From: a bacterium
Lineage (GTDB): Bacteria > Eisenbacteria > RBG-16-71-46 > CAIMUX01
NCBI GenBank assembly: GCA_030431975.1
Contig: JAUIHP010000010.1
Coordinates: forward strand, 124,001-188,000
Reading direction: 5' to 3'
Length of the DNA: 64,000 bases
Shown here: piece after piece, positions 6,127 to 58,251 of the stretch
How the letters are laid out: each line of letters begins with the position of its first letter
Numbering within the stretch: position 1 is the stretch's first letter
Made by a program: the position numbers and the translations under genes
Notes under the pieces: generated by a model
What the model saw: the letters and a program-made list of their open reading frames with translations, nothing else
Told to the model about the DNA's origin: nothing
Database searches by the model: none

Positions 6127-6168
6127 TCCAACCTCCAATTTGATTTGGAATTGCCACTCGCAAGCGAG

Positions 6169-6930
6169 TTAGGCCATCAGCATCCCGCCGTCCACGCGAA
6201 TCACCTGGCCGGTTATGTAGCTCGCTCCTTCGGAAGCAAGGAACGAAACGGCTCCTGCCACATCCTCGGGCTCGCCGAAACGAGCCACAGGAATCTGCGA
6301 CAGGAGGCTTTCCCGAACGGCCTCGGGAAGTTCTCCCGTCATGTCTGTCGTGATGAATCCGGGCGCAACGGCGTTGACGGTGACGTTGCGCTCAGCCAGC
6401 TCACGCGCAAGGGAGAAGGTTAGCCCGATCAGACCAGCCTTGGAAGCAGCATAGTTGGCCTGCCCCTTGTTCCCCATTTGCCCTACGACGGATGAAACAT
6501 TGATGACTCGCCCCCAGCGGGCCTTGAGCATCGCACGGGCAAACGATTTCGCGCAGTGAAAGGCTCCCTTGAGGTTGACGGAAAGCACCGCATCCCATGC
6601 GGCGTCGTCGAGTCGGAGAAAGACGTTGTCGCGAGTCAGGCCCGCGTTGTTCACCAAGATGGATACCGCGCCGACCTCTTCGGTTACGCGGCCCGCCAGT
6701 TCTTTGACCTGCTCAGCGTCCGCGACGTCACATCGAAAATGGTGGCATCTTCGCCCCATCTCCCGGATCTCCATGACCGTCGGCCCCTCTGGATCGCCAC
6801 TGCGGTCGACGAGAATGACGTCCGCACCGTCACGGGCCAACTGCAGACTGACGGCTCGACCGATCCCTCGGCTTCCTCCCGTGACCAGCGCAACCTTACC
6901 TTCGTGGAGTGGGGCTCTCTCGTCGCTCAT
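6169..6930 (-). CDS. fabG: 3-oxoacyl-ACP reductase
   Basis: FabG is the NADPH-dependent short-chain dehydrogenase that reduces the keto group in the fatty-acid elongation cycle. The 253-residue protein has the nucleotide-binding TGGSRGIG near residue 17, NNAG around residue 92, the catalytic Ser in INVSSVVGQ and the Tyr-x-x-x-Lys in NYAASKAGLIG. The start ATG overlaps the fabD stop by 4 nt (ATGA), indicating translational coupling. Confidence 0.97.
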   Translation of the reverse strand: MSDERAPLHEGKVALVTGGSRGIGRAVSLQLARDGADVILVDRSGDPEGPTVMEIREMGRRCHHFRCDVADAEQVKELAGRVTEEVGAVSILVNNAGLTRDNVFLRLDDAAWDAVLSVNLKGAFHCAKSFARAMLKARWGRVINVSSVVGQMGNKGQANYAASKAGLIGLTFSLARELAERNVTVNAVAPGFITTDMTGELPEAVRESLLSQIPVARFGEPEDVAGAVSFLASEGASYITGQVIRVDGGMLMA

Positions 6931-7859
6931 CGCGGTTCCTCCGCTGCGTTCAGGCGTGCTTCGATCTGTTCGAGAGTGCCCACGGCCTCAAAGTCGAGGC
7001 TCTTGTCGACCGCGCGAACCAGACCACAGAGAACCTTACCTGGTCCGACCTCGACGAAACGTGTGACGCCGCTGTCGATCATGTTTCGAATGGTCTCCTC
7101 CCACCGGACCGGGGAGAGAAGTTGCTTCTCCAGGGACGTCCGGATCTCGGAGGGATCCGTGACCGGCCGGGCGGACTCATTGGCAAAGACCGCGGCCCGT
7201 GGCTTCCGGACCTCGGCGGACGCCAGGGCCTCCCGCAGGCCGACCGCAGCGCTTTCCAGAAGAGGTGAGTGAAACGCTCCACTGACCTCGAGCCGAACGA
7301 CACGTTTCGCGCCCGCGTCCTTCAGCGCCTCCATCGCTTCCTCGACGGCGCCGACCTCGCCGGAAATGACGATCTGGGTCGGAGAGTTCAGGTTCGCCGG
7401 CACGACGACTCCCAGGATCCGTTCGAGAACCTCGGAAAGCGGCTCGGCGCCCAGTCCGAGGATGGCCGCCATCGCTCCCGGCTTTTCCTTGCCGGAGTCC
7501 CACATGAGTTCTCCCCGTTTCCGGACGAGACGGAGGGCGTCGGCGAAACTGAGAGCCCCCGCCGCGTAGTAAGCGGAGTACTCACCGAGCGAGTGCCCGG
7601 CCGCACAGTCGTTGCCACCGACGTTCCAGTCCAGGGCGGCGAGAACGGCGGCGCTGTGGACGAAGATAGCGGGCTGGGTGTTACGCGTCTCCCGAAGCTC
7701 GTCTTCAGGCCCCTCAAAACAGAGGTGCGCGAGATCGAATCCCAAAACCTCGTTGGCTTCGTCGAAGACTTTCCGAGCGGCCGCGTGTCCGTCATAGAGG
7801 TCACGCCCCATTCCGACGAACTGTGATCCCTGTCCCGGAAACAAAAAAGCGGTGGTCAA
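6927..7859 (-). CDS. fabD: Malonyl-CoA:ACP transacylase
   Basis: FabD loads malonate from CoA onto ACP. The protein shows FLFPGQGSQ at the N-terminus, the nucleophile Ser90 in GHSLGEYSA and the catalytic His in SGAFHSPLL. I use the TTG at 7859 because AGGAG lies 8 nt upstream and the resulting MTTAFLFPGQ matches the family; an in-frame TTG at 7877 would add six residues and overlap the ribosome site. It ends in a 4-nt overlap with fabG and begins 40 nt after fabH. Confidence 0.96.
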   Translation of the reverse strand: MTTAFLFPGQGSQFVGMGRDLYDGHAAARKVFDEANEVLGFDLAHLCFEGPEDELRETRNTQPAIFVHSAAVLAALDWNVGGNDCAAGHSLGEYSAYYAAGALSFADALRLVRKRGELMWDSGKEKPGAMAAILGLGAEPLSEVLERILGVVVPANLNSPTQIVISGEVGAVEEAMEALKDAGAKRVVRLEVSGAFHSPLLESAAVGLREALASAEVRKPRAAVFANESARPVTDPSEIRTSLEKQLLSPVRWEETIRNMIDSGVTRFVEVGPGKVLCGLVRAVDKSLDFEAVGTLEQIEARLNAAEEPR

Positions 7860-7899
7860 AGAAATGGCTCCTTCCAAGAAAACTCGGGGGACGTTGCGA

Positions 7900-8907
7900 T
7901 CACCAACGAACGAGCATCGCTCCCCAGGTCAGGCCCCCACCGAAGACGACGAAGAGCACGAGATCTCCGGGTTTGAGCCGGCCCGAGCGTACCGCTTCGT
8001 CCATCGCGATGGGCACGGATGCTGCCGAGGTGTTTCCGTACTTGTCGATGTTGACGAAGACGCGATCCGACTCGATTTCGAGACGTTTGGCGGTGGCATC
8101 GATGATTCGGATGTTGGCCTGATGTGGGATGAGGATGTCGACATCGTTGGCCCCGATTCCCGCCTTGTCCAGAACCCGAAGGCAGGTTTCGGCCATTCCC
8201 CGGACGCCGTGCTTGAAGACTTCGTTGCCCTTGACGCGCAGGTAGTGGAGCCGCTCCTCCATCACTTCGGCGGTGATCGGAAGTCGCGAACCGCCGGCCG
8301 GCAACTCGATGAGTGAACCGTACCGTCCGTCCGAGCCCAGATCACTGTCGACAATGTAGTGATCGTCGTCGCCGACACCGAGCACAGCCGCGCCGCAACC
8401 GTCGCCGAAGAGGACGCACGTGTTGCGGTCGGTGAAGTCGGTGAACTTGGAAAGGATCTCCACGCCGATAACCAGAACCTTGTCGGCGGATCCGTTCCCA
8501 ATGAACCCTCGGGCCACTTCACAGCCGTAGAGGAATCCGGAGCAGGCAGCCGAGACGTCCATACAAAACGCGTTGGTCGCTCCGAGCTTGGCTTGAACGA
8601 GACAGGCGGTACTGGGAAAGAGATGGTCGCCGGTCACGGTACCGACGATGATGGCATCAAGTTCTTCCGGCCGGACACCGGCCGTTTCCAGCGCATGGCG
8701 GGCTGCCACCTCAGCCACATCGGAGGCCGCCTCTCCGTCGGCGACGAAACGGCGCTCTTTGATTCCGGTCCGCGTGGTGATCCACTCGTCCGAGGTTTCG
8801 ACCATCTTCTCGAGGTCCTGGTTCGTCACCACCCGCTCGGGAAGGTGTGACCCTGTCCCGAGAAAACGAACCTCTCTAACCGGTCGCTTCTTCCCTGAAC
8901 TGCTCAC
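7900..8907 (-). CDS. fabH: 3-oxoacyl-ACP synthase III
   Basis: FabH starts fatty-acid synthesis by condensing acetyl-CoA (or a branched primer) with malonyl-ACP. The product is 335 residues, with Cys122 in MDVSAACSGF, the catalytic His in IPHQANIRII and Asn in DKYGNTSAAS. I set the start at the GTG at 8907: GAGGA lies about 8 nt upstream and family similarity begins at REVRFLGTGSHLPERVV. This start lies inside the 3' end of plsX (32-nt overlap). A much longer frame upstream (to 9051) has no family similarity. Confidence 0.95.
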   Translation of the reverse strand: MSSSGKKRPVREVRFLGTGSHLPERVVTNQDLEKMVETSDEWITTRTGIKERRFVADGEAASDVAEVAARHALETAGVRPEELDAIIVGTVTGDHLFPSTACLVQAKLGATNAFCMDVSAACSGFLYGCEVARGFIGNGSADKVLVIGVEILSKFTDFTDRNTCVLFGDGCGAAVLGVGDDDHYIVDSDLGSDGRYGSLIELPAGGSRLPITAEVMEERLHYLRVKGNEVFKHGVRGMAETCLRVLDKAGIGANDVDILIPHQANIRIIDATAKRLEIESDRVFVNIDKYGNTSAASVPIAMDEAVRSGRLKPGDLVLFVVFGGGLTWGAMLVRW

Positions 8908-9922
8908 GCGAGAATTCCTCTCCGATCTTTGTGACGAGGCCCTCGTGGGCCATCCTGGCCCCTTGCCGGACGGCGTTTCGAATCGCTTTGGCCGAGGAGC
9001 TGCCGTGTGAAATGACGACGACACCCCCCACGCCGAGAAGCGGAGCCCCACCCACTTCCTCGTAACTGAGCCGCTGTTTCAGCGTGCCGAACACCGGCTT
9101 CATAAAAAGAGCGCCCAGCTTTGCTGTCGGACTCTTCCGAATCTCCTCACGGAGCGTACCGGTGACGACGCCGATGATACTCTCCGCAAACTTCAAAAGA
9201 ACGTTTCCGGTGAACCCGTCACAGACGACGACGTCGACGTTGCCTCCGAGGACATCACGTCCCTCGACGTTTCCGACGAAGTTGATCTCCGCGGTCCGCT
9301 CTTCGAGTAGACGGTACACCTGCTTGTAGAGGTCAGATCCCTTTTCCGGCTCTTCCCCGATATTGAGCAGGCCCACCCGGGGCTTGACGACGTCCAGAAC
9401 CGAATGGGAGTAGATGCGGCCCATGAGGGCGAACTGACAGAGGTTCAGCGGTTTGGCGTCTGCGACAGCCCCCACGTCCAGCAGGACGCAGTACCCACCG
9501 TTGACGGTGGGAATCGCAGTGGCGATGGCGGGGCGAAGAACCCCTTTCGTGCGGCCCAGGCCGAGAAGAGCGGCCGTGACCACGGCGCCGGTGTTCCCGG
9601 CCGAAACGACGGCGTCGGCGGAATTGTCCCGCATCAGCCGGAGGGCCACTCCGATGGAGGAATCGGGTTTCTTGCGAGCGGACGAGGCCGCCGACTCACC
9701 CATGCCCACGGACTCCGAAGCATGAACGACCTCGATGCCGAGAGAATTCAGCGCTCCACGTCCATCGCAGGCTCGGATCGCCGCCTCGTCCCCGGTGAGG
9801 ACCACGGAGCACTCGTCACCGAAGCGCTCCACGGCTTCAATCGCGCCTTCGACGATCGTCTCGGGAGCGTGGTCGCCGCCCATGGCGTCCAGGGCGACTC
9901 GCGGACAAGGCGATGGGCTCAA
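8876..9922 (-). CDS. plsX: Phosphate acyltransferase PlsX
   Basis: PlsX converts acyl-ACP to acyl-phosphate for the first step of phospholipid synthesis (with PlsY/PlsC). The 348-residue protein shows the family start VALDAMGGDHAPE, SAGNTGA, and the conserved DVGAVADAKP and VCDGFTGNVLLK blocks. The start is a TTG at 9922 with GAGG 5 nt upstream. It follows rpmF by 33 nt and overlaps fabH, the usual order in fatty-acid/phospholipid operons. Confidence 0.96.
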   Translation of the reverse strand: MSPSPCPRVALDAMGGDHAPETIVEGAIEAVERFGDECSVVLTGDEAAIRACDGRGALNSLGIEVVHASESVGMGESAASSARKKPDSSIGVALRLMRDNSADAVVSAGNTGAVVTAALLGLGRTKGVLRPAIATAIPTVNGGYCVLLDVGAVADAKPLNLCQFALMGRIYSHSVLDVVKPRVGLLNIGEEPEKGSDLYKQVYRLLEERTAEINFVGNVEGRDVLGGNVDVVVCDGFTGNVLLKFAESIIGVVTGTLREEIRKSPTAKLGALFMKPVFGTLKQRLSYEEVGGAPLLGVGGVVVISHGSSSAKAIRNAVRQGARMAHEGLVTKIGEEFSREQFREEATG

Positions 9923-9955
9923 TCGAACCTCAGATTCTGATTGCGTGCGGCGGGC

Positions 9956-10135
9956 CTAGGTCTCGGTCTCGATCCGCTTCTCGCTTCCGTATTGACCGCA
10001 GGAGGGGCAGATGAAATGGGGACGTTTGGCGGCTCCACAGTCCTGACAACGCGTGGACGCCGGCGCGGCCAGCTTCCATTGGGCGCGTCGCTTGTCGCGG
10101 CGGGTGGAGGAATGACGCCTCTTTGGCAGTGCCAT
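9956..10135 (-). CDS. rpmF: 50S ribosomal protein L32 (59 residues)
   Basis: A short frame beginning MALPKRRHSSTRRDKRRAQW is clear L32, a small protein of the large ribosomal subunit. It contains the four-Cys zinc motif, CQDC and CPSC, and ends KRIETET. The gene sits between the DUF177 gene and plsX, the classic yceD-rpmF-plsX arrangement. It is only 59 residues, so simple length filters miss it; other frames in the same stretch are not coding. Confidence 0.97.
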   Translation of the reverse strand: MALPKRRHSSTRRDKRRAQWKLAAPASTRCQDCGAAKRPHFICPSCGQYGSEKRIETET

Positions 10136-10172
10136 TGAACTTGTTCTCCGTCAACGGTTTAAGGGTCGAACT

Positions 10173-10781
10173 TCACTCGGGCTCTGAATCTTCGGACTTT
10201 GAATCTATGGACTCTGAAGCCTTGGACTCTGGAGTCTTGGACTCTGGAGCCTTGTGATCCATGAGCGCCTGCCACCGGGGATCGACCCGATCCCTGGGAC
10301 AAGTACACGCATCTTCCTCGTTTCGGTCAGCCCCGCATCGAGGACAGAGCCCCTGACAATCCGGTCGACAGACAGGGTGCCAAGGGACTTCGATTACGAG
10401 AACCTGACGGATGTCCTCCGTAAGGTCCACAGACTGCCCGTCATGATAGACGATTCCCAGATCGTCTTCACGAACTTCTTTGTTACCACGGGGATCGCGG
10501 GAATCGGGAGGCTCCGCAAAGACCCGGAACTCCGTTTCCACCGGCGCCTCGAACTCCTTCAGGCATCGACCACATTTCAGTCGAGCCCGAGCGACCAGGG
10601 GCCCCCGAATCTCGAGCTTCGCCCCCATCTTGTAGACGGTCGGCCGAAACGAGACACGGCCGTTCGGGTCGAAGACCTCCGGATCCAAGTCCAGATCAGC
10701 GGGAGTCCCAATCAGTTCCCGGTGGCTTTCCCCTTCTTCCAGGACCGAAAGCGGCAGGACGAAGGGGTCCTTCGCCCCCAC
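10173..10781 (-). CDS. yceD: YceD/DUF177 family protein
   Basis: The family is encoded next to rpmF in many bacteria and in some species influences 23S rRNA production. The 202-residue protein has the conserved CGRCLKEFEAPVE zinc-like pair, a DLTEDIRQVLVIEVP stretch and a second Cys cluster (CRPDCQGLCPRCG, then CTCP). The last 25 residues are a repetitive acidic/Ser tail (PESK/SES units) built from a 15-bp tandem repeat. The start is GTG at 10781, only 3 nt after the ndk stop. Confidence 0.9.
   Translation of the reverse strand: MGAKDPFVLPLSVLEEGESHRELIGTPADLDLDPEVFDPNGRVSFRPTVYKMGAKLEIRGPLVARARLKCGRCLKEFEAPVETEFRVFAEPPDSRDPRGNKEVREDDLGIVYHDGQSVDLTEDIRQVLVIEVPWHPVCRPDCQGLCPRCGADRNEEDACTCPRDRVDPRWQALMDHKAPESKTPESKASESIDSKSEDSEPE
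10194..10253. repeat. 15-bp tandem repeat, about four copies, inside yceD
   Basis: Units at 10209-10223, 10224-10238 and 10239-10253 are near-identical versions of GGACTCTGGAGCCTT, with a more diverged fourth at 10194-10208. The period is a multiple of 3, so the array adds pentapeptides (PESKA/T type) to the C-terminus of YceD without breaking the frame. Confidence 0.85.
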
Positions 10782-10784
10782 CGC

Positions 10785-11201
10785 TCACGCCCGAACAGCG
10801 TGCGAAAGACCGTAGAACGCGATTTCCTCGGCAGCCGTTTCCGGAGCATCGGAGCCGTGAACGGAGTTCCGCTCCAGGCTCTCCGCCAGATCCTTGCGGA
10901 TGGTCCCGGGCTCGGCGTTCTCCGGATTGGTCGCTCCCATGAGGTCGCGCCACCGCTTGATCGCGTCCTCACCTTCGAGAACGCCGACGACGATAGGGCC
11001 AGAACTCATGAACGTACACAGGGAGTCGAAAAACGGTCGCTCCTTGTGGACCGCGTAGAAGCCCTGCGCATCATCCTTGGAAAGATGGACCATCCGGAGT
11101 TGGGCGATTCGGAGACCGGCCTTCTCGACGCGGGAGAGGATCTCTCCAACGAGGTTCCGAGCCGTAGCGTCCGGCTTGATCATCATCAGTGTCTGTTCCA
11201 T
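10785..11201 (-). CDS. ndk: Nucleoside diphosphate kinase
   Basis: Ndk transfers the gamma phosphate between nucleoside tri- and diphosphates. The 138-residue protein begins [20 protein letters not shown] and has the phospho-accepting His115 in NSVHGSDAP, with the expected [13 protein letters not shown] loop. The ATG at 11201 is chosen because GGAACAGAG precedes it and the family starts here; an open frame extends 18 codons further upstream without similarity. It lies 96 nt after sucD and 3 nt before yceD. Confidence 0.97.
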
Positions 11202-11297
11202 CTCTGTTCCTTCTCTCCTTCTTGCACTCTCGCTCGGTCTCTGGATCCTGATCACCTCAAGGATCCGATCGCCAATCGGACGGACCTGACTTCCTGG

Positions 11298-12164
11298 TTA
11301 GAGAAGGTCGCGAATCATTCCTCCGACCTCGGAGGGAATTCGGGCGACCTGAATACCATGACCTTCCAACGTCTTCGTCTTGTCCTCGGCCGTACCCTGT
11401 CCGCCGGAGATGATGGCGCCGGCATGACCCATGCGCTTCCCTGGAGGAGCGGTCCGCCCGGCAATGAAACCAACGACGGGCTTGCTCATGTTCTTGGAGA
11501 TGTAGGCGGCGGCTTCTTCTTCGGCCGTTCCACCGATCTCACCAATCATGACCACGGCCTTCGTCTCCGGGTCGGCTTCAAAGAGTTCCAGCGTATCGAT
11601 GAACTGCGTCCCGATGACGGGGTCTCCCCCAATGCCGATGCAGGTCGACTGTCCGATTCCGTTGCGGGTCAGCTGATACACCATTTCGTAGGTCAGCGTT
11701 CCGCTTCGTGAGACCACGCCGACGTTGCCCGGCGTATGGATCTCGCCGGGAAGGATTCCGACCTTGCTCTTGCCCGGTGAGATCAGCCCCGGACAGTTGG
11801 GTCCGATGAGCCGGACTCCCATCTCCTTCAGCTCGTGCACGACAGGAATCATGTCGAGAACGGGAATGCCCTCGGTGATGGCAACGACCAGCTTGACCCC
11901 GGCGTGCGCCGCTTCCAGTACAGCGTCGGCGGCGAATGCCGGCGGAACGTAGATGACCGATGTGTTCGCGCCCGTCTCCTGGACGGCCTCCGACACGAGG
12001 TTGAACACGGGGATTCCGTGCTCTTCCTGTCCGCCCTTGCCGGGCGTCACTCCGGCCACGACCTTGGTTCCGTAGTCCTTCATACCCTTGGCATGAAAGG
12101 AGCCGTCCCGCCCGGTGATTCCGCTTACTACGACCTTGGTGGTCTCATCGATGAGAATAGCCAC
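11298..12164 (-). CDS. sucD: Succinyl-CoA synthetase alpha subunit
   Basis: SucD with SucC converts succinyl-CoA to succinate with substrate-level phosphorylation in the TCA cycle. The 288-residue protein has the CoA-binding Rossmann start, [20 protein letters not shown] and the phospho-His247 in [12 protein letters not shown]. The start is a GTG at 12164 with a purine-rich AGAGGGGGA upstream. It lies 15 nt after sucC, so the two subunits are co-translated. Confidence 0.97.
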
Positions 12165-57443: not shown

Positions 57444-58160
57444 CTAGCCGGTCGCCGCCGATGACGTCCCGTTGCTCTTCCCACTCGGAGTCCCCGCAGT
57501 ATCCGGCGCCTTGGGCTTCATCGAATAGGCCGGCGCAAGGAAGCTGTCCGGCATCGCCGCAAACAAAGTCTCCGTCGAATCGCTGACGAAGAACCACGGC
57601 TGACCGGCGAACCGCCTCATCGGCGCATCCGTGCCTGGTCGGAATCGTTGTTTGCTCACAGGGTCGGTAACGATTCCACAGTGCTTCCGCGGGTCCTGGT
57701 TGAACCTGTTCCGCTCCTTGTCCGAGGCGAAGTAGTACAGCTCGTAGTTGACACGCGACTGGTGTTCTTCATCGATCTGGGCACGCAGCCGTTCGTTGAC
57801 GGCACACTCCAGGTCGACTTCCAGATCCTTCAGGTAGGGCACAGGGTCTTTCACGAAGACCGCAACACACGGGCTTCAGCAAAAGCCCACCGGATGTTGG
57901 TTGACGTAGATGGCGGGCATTCTCGTGTTGAGCCGAACTCTTCGCACCGGACACTGATCGTTCAAGGTGAGTTGGCCGTCCGGATAGCGAAGCTTGGAAA
58001 GATCGGCGGTCGTATCGACACGGACGGCGAGGCCGCTGTCGTCGACCAACACGGTAGGCTCCTGGCTGCAGGAGAGGACGGCCAATGGAATGAACAGGGT
58101 CCAAAGAGCGAACTGACGTTTGAGGGGGCGGTAACGCCCCAAGCGATCCAATGAAATCAT
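57444..58160 (-). CDS. Candidate selenocysteine-containing YHS-domain lipoprotein (in-frame TGA at codon 95)
   Basis: The gene is a single 239-codon frame interrupted by one TGA at 57878-57876. It starts at ATG 58160 (GGGGGA just before), with a lipoprotein signal ending in VLSC (Cys31). Residues 70-110 are a YHS-type metal-binding domain: CPVRRVRL, then VNQHPVGFC94, TGA95, Ser-Pro-Cys98, then VAVFVKDPVPYL. In typical YHS proteins this reads Phe-Cys-Cys-x-x-Cys followed by a Phe, Asp-Pro and Tyr-Leu, so the TGA takes the place of the second Cys. Two more degenerate YHS-like units follow (YYFASDKERNRFNQDP; VTDPVSKQRFRPG), then a Pro/Ser/Thr tail. Homology continues across the TGA and a SECIS-like hairpin follows it. 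If TGA is a stop, the product is a 94-residue fragment and the rest a pseudogene remnant. The Sec reading is an inference from sequence. Confidence 0.75.
57845..57878 (-). promoter_or_regulatory. Candidate bacterial SECIS element
   Basis: The TGA (57878-57876) is followed, 14 nt later, by GGTCTT (57861-57856), a 5-nt loop CGTGA (57855-57851) and AAGACC (57850-57845), a perfect 6-bp stem. The apical loop begins 20 nt after the TGA and has G at its second position. Bacterial SECIS elements known from SelB-dependent genes have a short stem-loop with the apical loop about 16-37 nt after the TGA and a G in the first two loop positions, so the fit is good. The stem lies within the coding sequence, as required in bacteria. 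Confidence 0.65.
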
Positions 58161-58251
58161 TGTTCCCCCGGCGATGAACTGACTGAAACAAACAACGCTG
58201 TCCGTCAGTACCCGTCGGGGGAAACGAAGTTCCCAACAAGATCGAAGCGAA

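Follow-up and report, generated by a model that had tools for sequence, protein, structure and literature searches.

Among the closest described relatives of the protein reported here are the YHS/TRASH domains (PF04945) of Cu-ATPases, of the M. phlei adenylyl cyclase (PMC4626032), and of ribosomal eL24, which have the same fold, the same FC-x-x-x-C signature, and a spacing of D/N-x2-C, about 23 residues, C-x3-C. In the copper-responsive YHS domain of the M. phlei cyclase, D178, C181, C204, and C208 are the proposed ligands (PMC4626032). A YHS (seleno)protein family with the motif GxU, NF041384, is already listed in Table 1 of a selenoprotein review (PMC13188914) and is the "YHS domain protein (OS)" of PMC2398784. 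Selenocysteine (Sec) forms of the SO_0444 Cu/Zn efflux transporter, NF033936, have also been reported (PMC13188914). The original prediction that no Sec-containing YHS protein had been described is therefore incorrect in general, NF041384 being known, but stands for the family to which the present gene belongs.

The gene lies on the minus strand of the window, a 64,000-nucleotide stretch of a contig from an Eisenbacteria genome, and runs from an ATG at 58160 to a TAG at 57446-57444. A TGA at 57878-57876 is the sole interruption of the frame, which comprises 238 codons when the TGA is read: MISLDRLGR...VLSC31...NDQC70PV...VGFC94-U95-SPC98VAVFVKDP.... The TGA is the codon next to Cys94, in the context FC-TGA-xxC. 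GC3 is 0.71 upstream of it and 0.76 downstream, and both flanks have the codon-position composition of coding sequence, in agreement with the proposal of one frame split by a TGA, with GC-rich codon use continuing past it. A standard gene caller would cut the frame at the TGA, and the family is thus easily missed. From the frame, the homologues, and the structural model, 57444-58160 was annotated as a selenoprotein of 238 residues, with the TGA assigned to Sec95 by the alternation of TGA and Cys codons in homologues. Judged by sequence comparison, this is almost certainly a genuine selenoprotein gene.

A single protein used as the query against genome contigs recovered no relative; relatives came with an alignment query. 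A protein search of 146 relatives yielded 13 full-length loci, including that of the window. At the aligned codon, nine of the 13 have TGA (the window's gene, L018, L019, L020, and L024-L028) and four have TGC (L021, L022, L023, and L029); no other codon occurs at the site in these loci. When one genome per species was scanned with an alignment as the query, 24 loci turned up in named metagenome-assembled genomes (MAGs), 23 of them with TGA. The pattern used for the scan, YVN[GRQ]xP[IV][GA]FC, ends one codon short of the Sec95 site, so the predominance of TGA is not a selection effect; some genomes found earlier recur among the 24 loci (L060, L066, L068, L070, L071, L072, and L074). After removal of same-genome copies from the two collections, 27 distinct full-length sequences, the window's included, carry TGA (the 26 sequences of the hairpin set below and L110) and four carry Cys (TGC), with neither TAA nor TAG at this codon in any of the 31; chance does not account for such agreement. 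In a phylogenetic tree, the Cys forms fall on four separate branches, with four changes of Sec/Cys label, three of them forced by well-supported branches.

The genomes bear the labels Eisenbacteria, Planctomycetota, Krumholzibacteriota, Zixibacteria, Gemmatimonadota, Acidobacteria, and Proteobacteria. Most homologues are on contigs of MAGs, and not all phylum labels are secure; the family appears to span about six bacterial phyla. It is rare in the Planctomycetota sample (six of 392 genomes), each member there having one in-frame TGA.

Were the in-frame stop confined to one MAG, it would point to a pseudogene, a sequencing error, or a frameshift in this assembly. The identical TGA in many independent assemblies, with the frame intact on both sides, leaves this explanation with a negligible probability. 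Ordinary termination, giving a 94-residue secreted peptide followed by dead sequence or a separate gene, draws some support from the normal use of TGA as a stop in these genomes; several family members themselves end in TGA, so TGA still serves as a stop, in line with the standard code assumed in the original prediction. Termination at codon 95 is nevertheless very improbable. TGA is found at exactly this codon across phyla and is followed by a covarying SECIS hairpin, described below. Every homologue conserves the downstream half, in which F153, D166, P167, F173, F191, and F200 are invariant, and in the four Cys forms the two halves run on without a break. The relatives do not stop at this position, and the downstream half is part of the same gene, as had been proposed.

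The host genome has the means to decode UGA as Sec. All four genes, selA, selB, selC, and selD, are present: the tRNA-Sec scores 70.7 bits and has the anticodon TCA, SelA scores 493.7 bits, SelB is over the cut-off, and SelD scores 373 bits. The SelD gene (L048, C52:182266-183189) has an in-frame TGA within CAG-U-ASK, which makes host SelD itself a probable selenoprotein. The internal TGA is the only point in favor of a genome-wide recoding of TGA, for example to Trp or Gly, or of a near-cognate suppressor. Against it stand the tRNA-Sec and the SelA/SelB/SelD set, the termination of some of the same genes at TGA, and the restriction of alternatives at the site to Cys, never Trp or Gly; such recoding is extremely unlikely.

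Across the Eisenbacteria phylum, a selA match was obtained in every TGA-form genome tested except G042, although in G034 it consists of two sub-threshold pieces. In three genomes with TGA forms (G027, G030, and G034), no tRNA-Sec scored above 60 bits; selA is present in all three, so assembly gaps are the likely reason. In G042, the long form is Cys (L021), and the gene of a short sister form (L046; see below) has the TGA and an extra TAG. Neither selA nor tRNA-Sec was detected over the cut-off in this MAG; it is 80% complete, and the absence is therefore only suggestive. It looks as if the selenium trait has been lost in G042 and the short gene is decaying. In Planctomycetota, selA occurs anyway in 239 of 392 genomes, and co-occurrence with SelA is thus uninformative there.

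Comparison makes a strong case that Sec is inserted at UGA 57878-57876 through the usual bacterial machinery of SelA, SelB, SelD, and tRNA-Sec, aided by a SECIS hairpin 20 nt downstream. In the published bacterial model, a bSECIS has a loop of 3-9 nt, a stem of 4-16 bp, a G in the first two loop positions, and a spacing of 16-37 nt between the UGA and the loop (PMC13188914). The candidate in the window, GGUCUU-CGUGA-AAGACC (57845-57861, minus strand), begins 14 nt past the TGA and has a stem of 6 bp, a 5-nt loop (CGUGA) with G at the second position, and a UGA-to-loop spacing of 20 nt, all within the published ranges for loop, stem, G position, and spacing.

Comparison across the family provides the main argument for the hairpin. 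The six pairs are kept in 26 of 26 distinct Sec sequences, against 6.1 expected under a synonymous-codon null. Compensatory two-sided changes amount to 25 cells versus 9.8 (SD 2.3) in shuffles, with none of 500 shuffles reaching 25, and controls in which the position was slid gave one to three such cells. Pairing-preserving two-sided changes occur at five of eight pairs, and the encoded residues swap in step with the stem (VFV(Q/K)D, TFV(Q/K)G, IFVKG, and AFVQS). By itself, the hairpin of the window reaches -6.5 kcal/mol versus a guideline of -7.5 kcal/mol, and the optimum of the 45-nt segment (-9.2 kcal/mol) is a different fold; most homologues reach -7.5 kcal/mol with the stem formed. The case for a SECIS element in the window is therefore comparative, its own hairpin being modest. 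With this qualification, a bSECIS-like hairpin is present after the TGA, as anticipated, and covaries across Sec sequences. The family also provides covarying SECIS sets from these lineages.

Among the Cys forms, the six pairs are kept in one of four. This sequence, L022 (TGC), also retains a CGUGC loop; its hairpin may be left over from a recent replacement of Sec by Cys.

A second RNA structure was noted in the 5' leader (58152-58240, fold energy -32.6 kcal/mol, z -2.5). A candidate hairpin at 58160-58230 on the minus strand would enclose the putative ribosome-binding site (CGGGGGAACA-AUG), and translational control through it is possible. An Rfam search of the window region returned nothing relevant, only chance miRNA and sRNA matches.

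The encoded protein begins with a signal peptide, read by eye (58068-58160), that ends in the lipobox-like VLSC (Cys31). Three YHS units follow in the model, all on the minus strand. Unit 1 (residues about 59-112; 57825-57986) contains C70, C94, Sec95, and C98. Unit 2 (residues about 130-161; 57678-57773) and unit 3 (residues about 164-208; 57537-57671) are YHS-like and have no Cys pair; unit 3 has the conserved pattern DPV...RF.P...F...F. The AlphaFold2 model, calculated with 30 sequences, has a mean pLDDT of 86.3 and a pTM of 0.76 and consists of three successive beta-beta-alpha-alpha units, the modeled elements of unit 1 being strands 84-86 and 89-91 and helices 96-104 and 106-112. The nearest solved structures in Foldseek are the YHS part of methane/toluene monooxygenase hydroxylases and ribosomal eL24, all with weak E-values; in a sequence search of the PDB, the only matches were weak ones to YHS-like repeats of cilia proteins. 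Against Pfam YHS (PF04945; gathering score 30.3 bits), the window protein scores 29.3 bits at residues 141-159, while two homologues (36.7 and 41.6 bits) and the short form (33.8 bits) exceed the gathering score. A thioredoxin-like fold was considered and rejected, the beta-beta-alpha-alpha units of the model matching YHS and eL24.

The window protein is probably an exported, predicted lipoprotein. Signal peptides ending in Cys were also recognized by eye in L051, L052, L061, L064, L065, L067, and L069, whereas those of L018-L029 are of the ordinary kind; a lipobox is thus predicted for the window protein and some members but not for others.

C70, C94, C/U95, and C98 are invariant in the 30 sequences. 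The spacing of N67, C70, C94, and C98 matches the YHS/TRASH arrangement D-x2-C, C-x3-C (PMC4626032), which places Sec95 beside the metal site and not in place of a ligand. It had been thought that the TGA replaces a metal-site cysteine; by spacing, the ligands are C70, C94, and C98, and the TGA follows a ligand. Sec95 is therefore probably an extra chalcogen adjacent to a candidate metal site and not a canonical ligand.

A sister group of short exported proteins, with one in-frame TGA each, was found at 16 loci (L030-L041, L044-L046, and L103) in genomes of one taxonomic family within the same class. A signal peptide and the residues FT, or a near match to them, immediately precede the TGA (SRFT-U-xxxxPSGP...). 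The Sec of the short form aligns with Sec95; C70, C94, and C98 are all lost, and the TGA is kept at 16 of 16 loci. A near-invariant Cys is present elsewhere (C104, in 10 of 11), and the model of the short form keeps units 2 and 3. Read from stop to stop, the short form is a frame of only 120 residues. Its hairpin has 7 bp and a GUC or GUU loop and is 97.4% paired over 11 distinct sequences, with two covarying pairs; this exact hairpin was not found in a divergent subgroup (L030, L033, and L035). Retention of the TGA suggests, from alignment, a selenium function independent of the three cysteines. We propose tentatively, with somewhat less than even confidence, that the two related groups of exported YHS/treble-clef selenoproteins represent a new class of extracytoplasmic selenium chemistry and that in the short form one selenolate suffices. 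A lone Sec might, for example, trap a soft metal or an organometal, or form a mixed selenylsulfide with a partner. Forms with three Cys plus Sec, with a lone Sec, and with Cys offer a natural series for studying the role of selenium at an extracytoplasmic metal-type site.

Taken together, it is very probable that the gene encodes an exported, probably lipid-anchored selenoprotein of three YHS units, for which we infer a soft-metal/redox mechanism. In the model, the mature protein consists of the three tandem units, with C70, C94, Sec95, and C98 held by unit 1 and with units 2 and 3 presumably structural or for docking. A metal site of the YHS/TRASH type would be made up of C70, C94, and C98. 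Outside the cytoplasm, the adjacent selenolate with its UxxC motif would capture or redox-handle either a soft thiophilic metal or a thiol/disulfide; selenium would keep the site reactive and reversibly oxidizable.

Soft-metal handling with redox activity outside the cytoplasm is favored over a pure redox enzyme, and we give it about an even chance of being the function. Handling of Cu, Hg, or Ag, as put forward in the original prediction, is a possible form of it. The chief competitor, with an appreciable but lesser likelihood, is an extracytoplasmic oxidoreductase that acts on thiols/disulfides or on peroxide, with Sec95 as its catalytic residue; the Cys3 site would then be structural and no metal would be trafficked. 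UxxC is a common redox motif of selenoproteins (PMC13188914). The short group retains the TGA in the absence of the three cysteines, so the role of Sec is separable from the Cys3 metal site, and C104 could resolve the Sec there. In the long form, however, none of the three cysteines placed at YHS ligand spacing varies, while C161, the candidate resolving residue, is not invariant; the fold, moreover, is that of YHS and not of thioredoxin.

The neighbors of the window gene are unrelated and indicate no function, and no conserved gene neighbors of the family were found beyond close Eisenbacteria. In one Krumholzibacteriota MAG (L054), an SO_0444 Cu/Zn exporter and a CusA/CzcA-type efflux operon (3-1307 and 6162-11643) flank the gene, which is convergent with the operon; the exporter, which scores over the cut-off, is about 4 kb away. 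This single case is the sole heavy-metal neighborhood.

How, then, does the family relate to those already described? Like NF041384, it is bacterial, has a YHS-type domain, and exists in Sec or Cys forms. NF041384, however, is a single-domain model of 113 positions, compared with three units here. The window protein scores 21.8 bits against it (cut-off 70), with three homologues at 15-22 bits, and the aligned part is unit 2, away from the Sec. The Sec motif is FC-U-xxC in the present family and GxU in the table entry for NF041384; in L118, the one NF041384 member that was read, the GxC motif takes the form GGYC and lies N-terminally, ahead of the YHS hairpin. The Sec site thus appears, from these motifs, to differ between the two families. 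NF041384 is absent from the host genome; in G024 and G033 both families occur, at different loci. Identity of the two families was rejected on the score below cut-off and on the different location of the Sec.

Other NCBIfam models (June 2026) gave no match to the window protein, and no such family is listed in the 2026 inventory of 119 selenoprotein families and subfamilies. In the open-access published literature that was searched, no paper was found that pairs selenoproteins with Eisenbacteria or Krumholzibacteriota or that combines selenocysteine, YHS, and lipoprotein; a Planctomycetes genome paper lists selenoproteins, with YHS unmentioned in its main text. Selenoproteins and the NF041384 YHS family being already known, the present one is apparently an undescribed selenoprotein family. 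It adds to the curated models and to the 2026 inventory and spans several poorly studied phyla.

A vicinal Cys-Sec or UxxC is also found, according to entries in the review's table (PMC13188914), in SaoL, HgcA, SaoC, MbdU, and CopZ-like form 2, several of which are linked to soft metals. Motifs were compared through that table, and these proteins were set apart by their NCBIfam models, none of which matched the window protein at E 1. NF033936 is a membrane transporter, unlike the present family. In contrast to the PF04945 YHS/TRASH domains, the present family is exported, contains three tandem units, and has Sec directly after the FC ligand.
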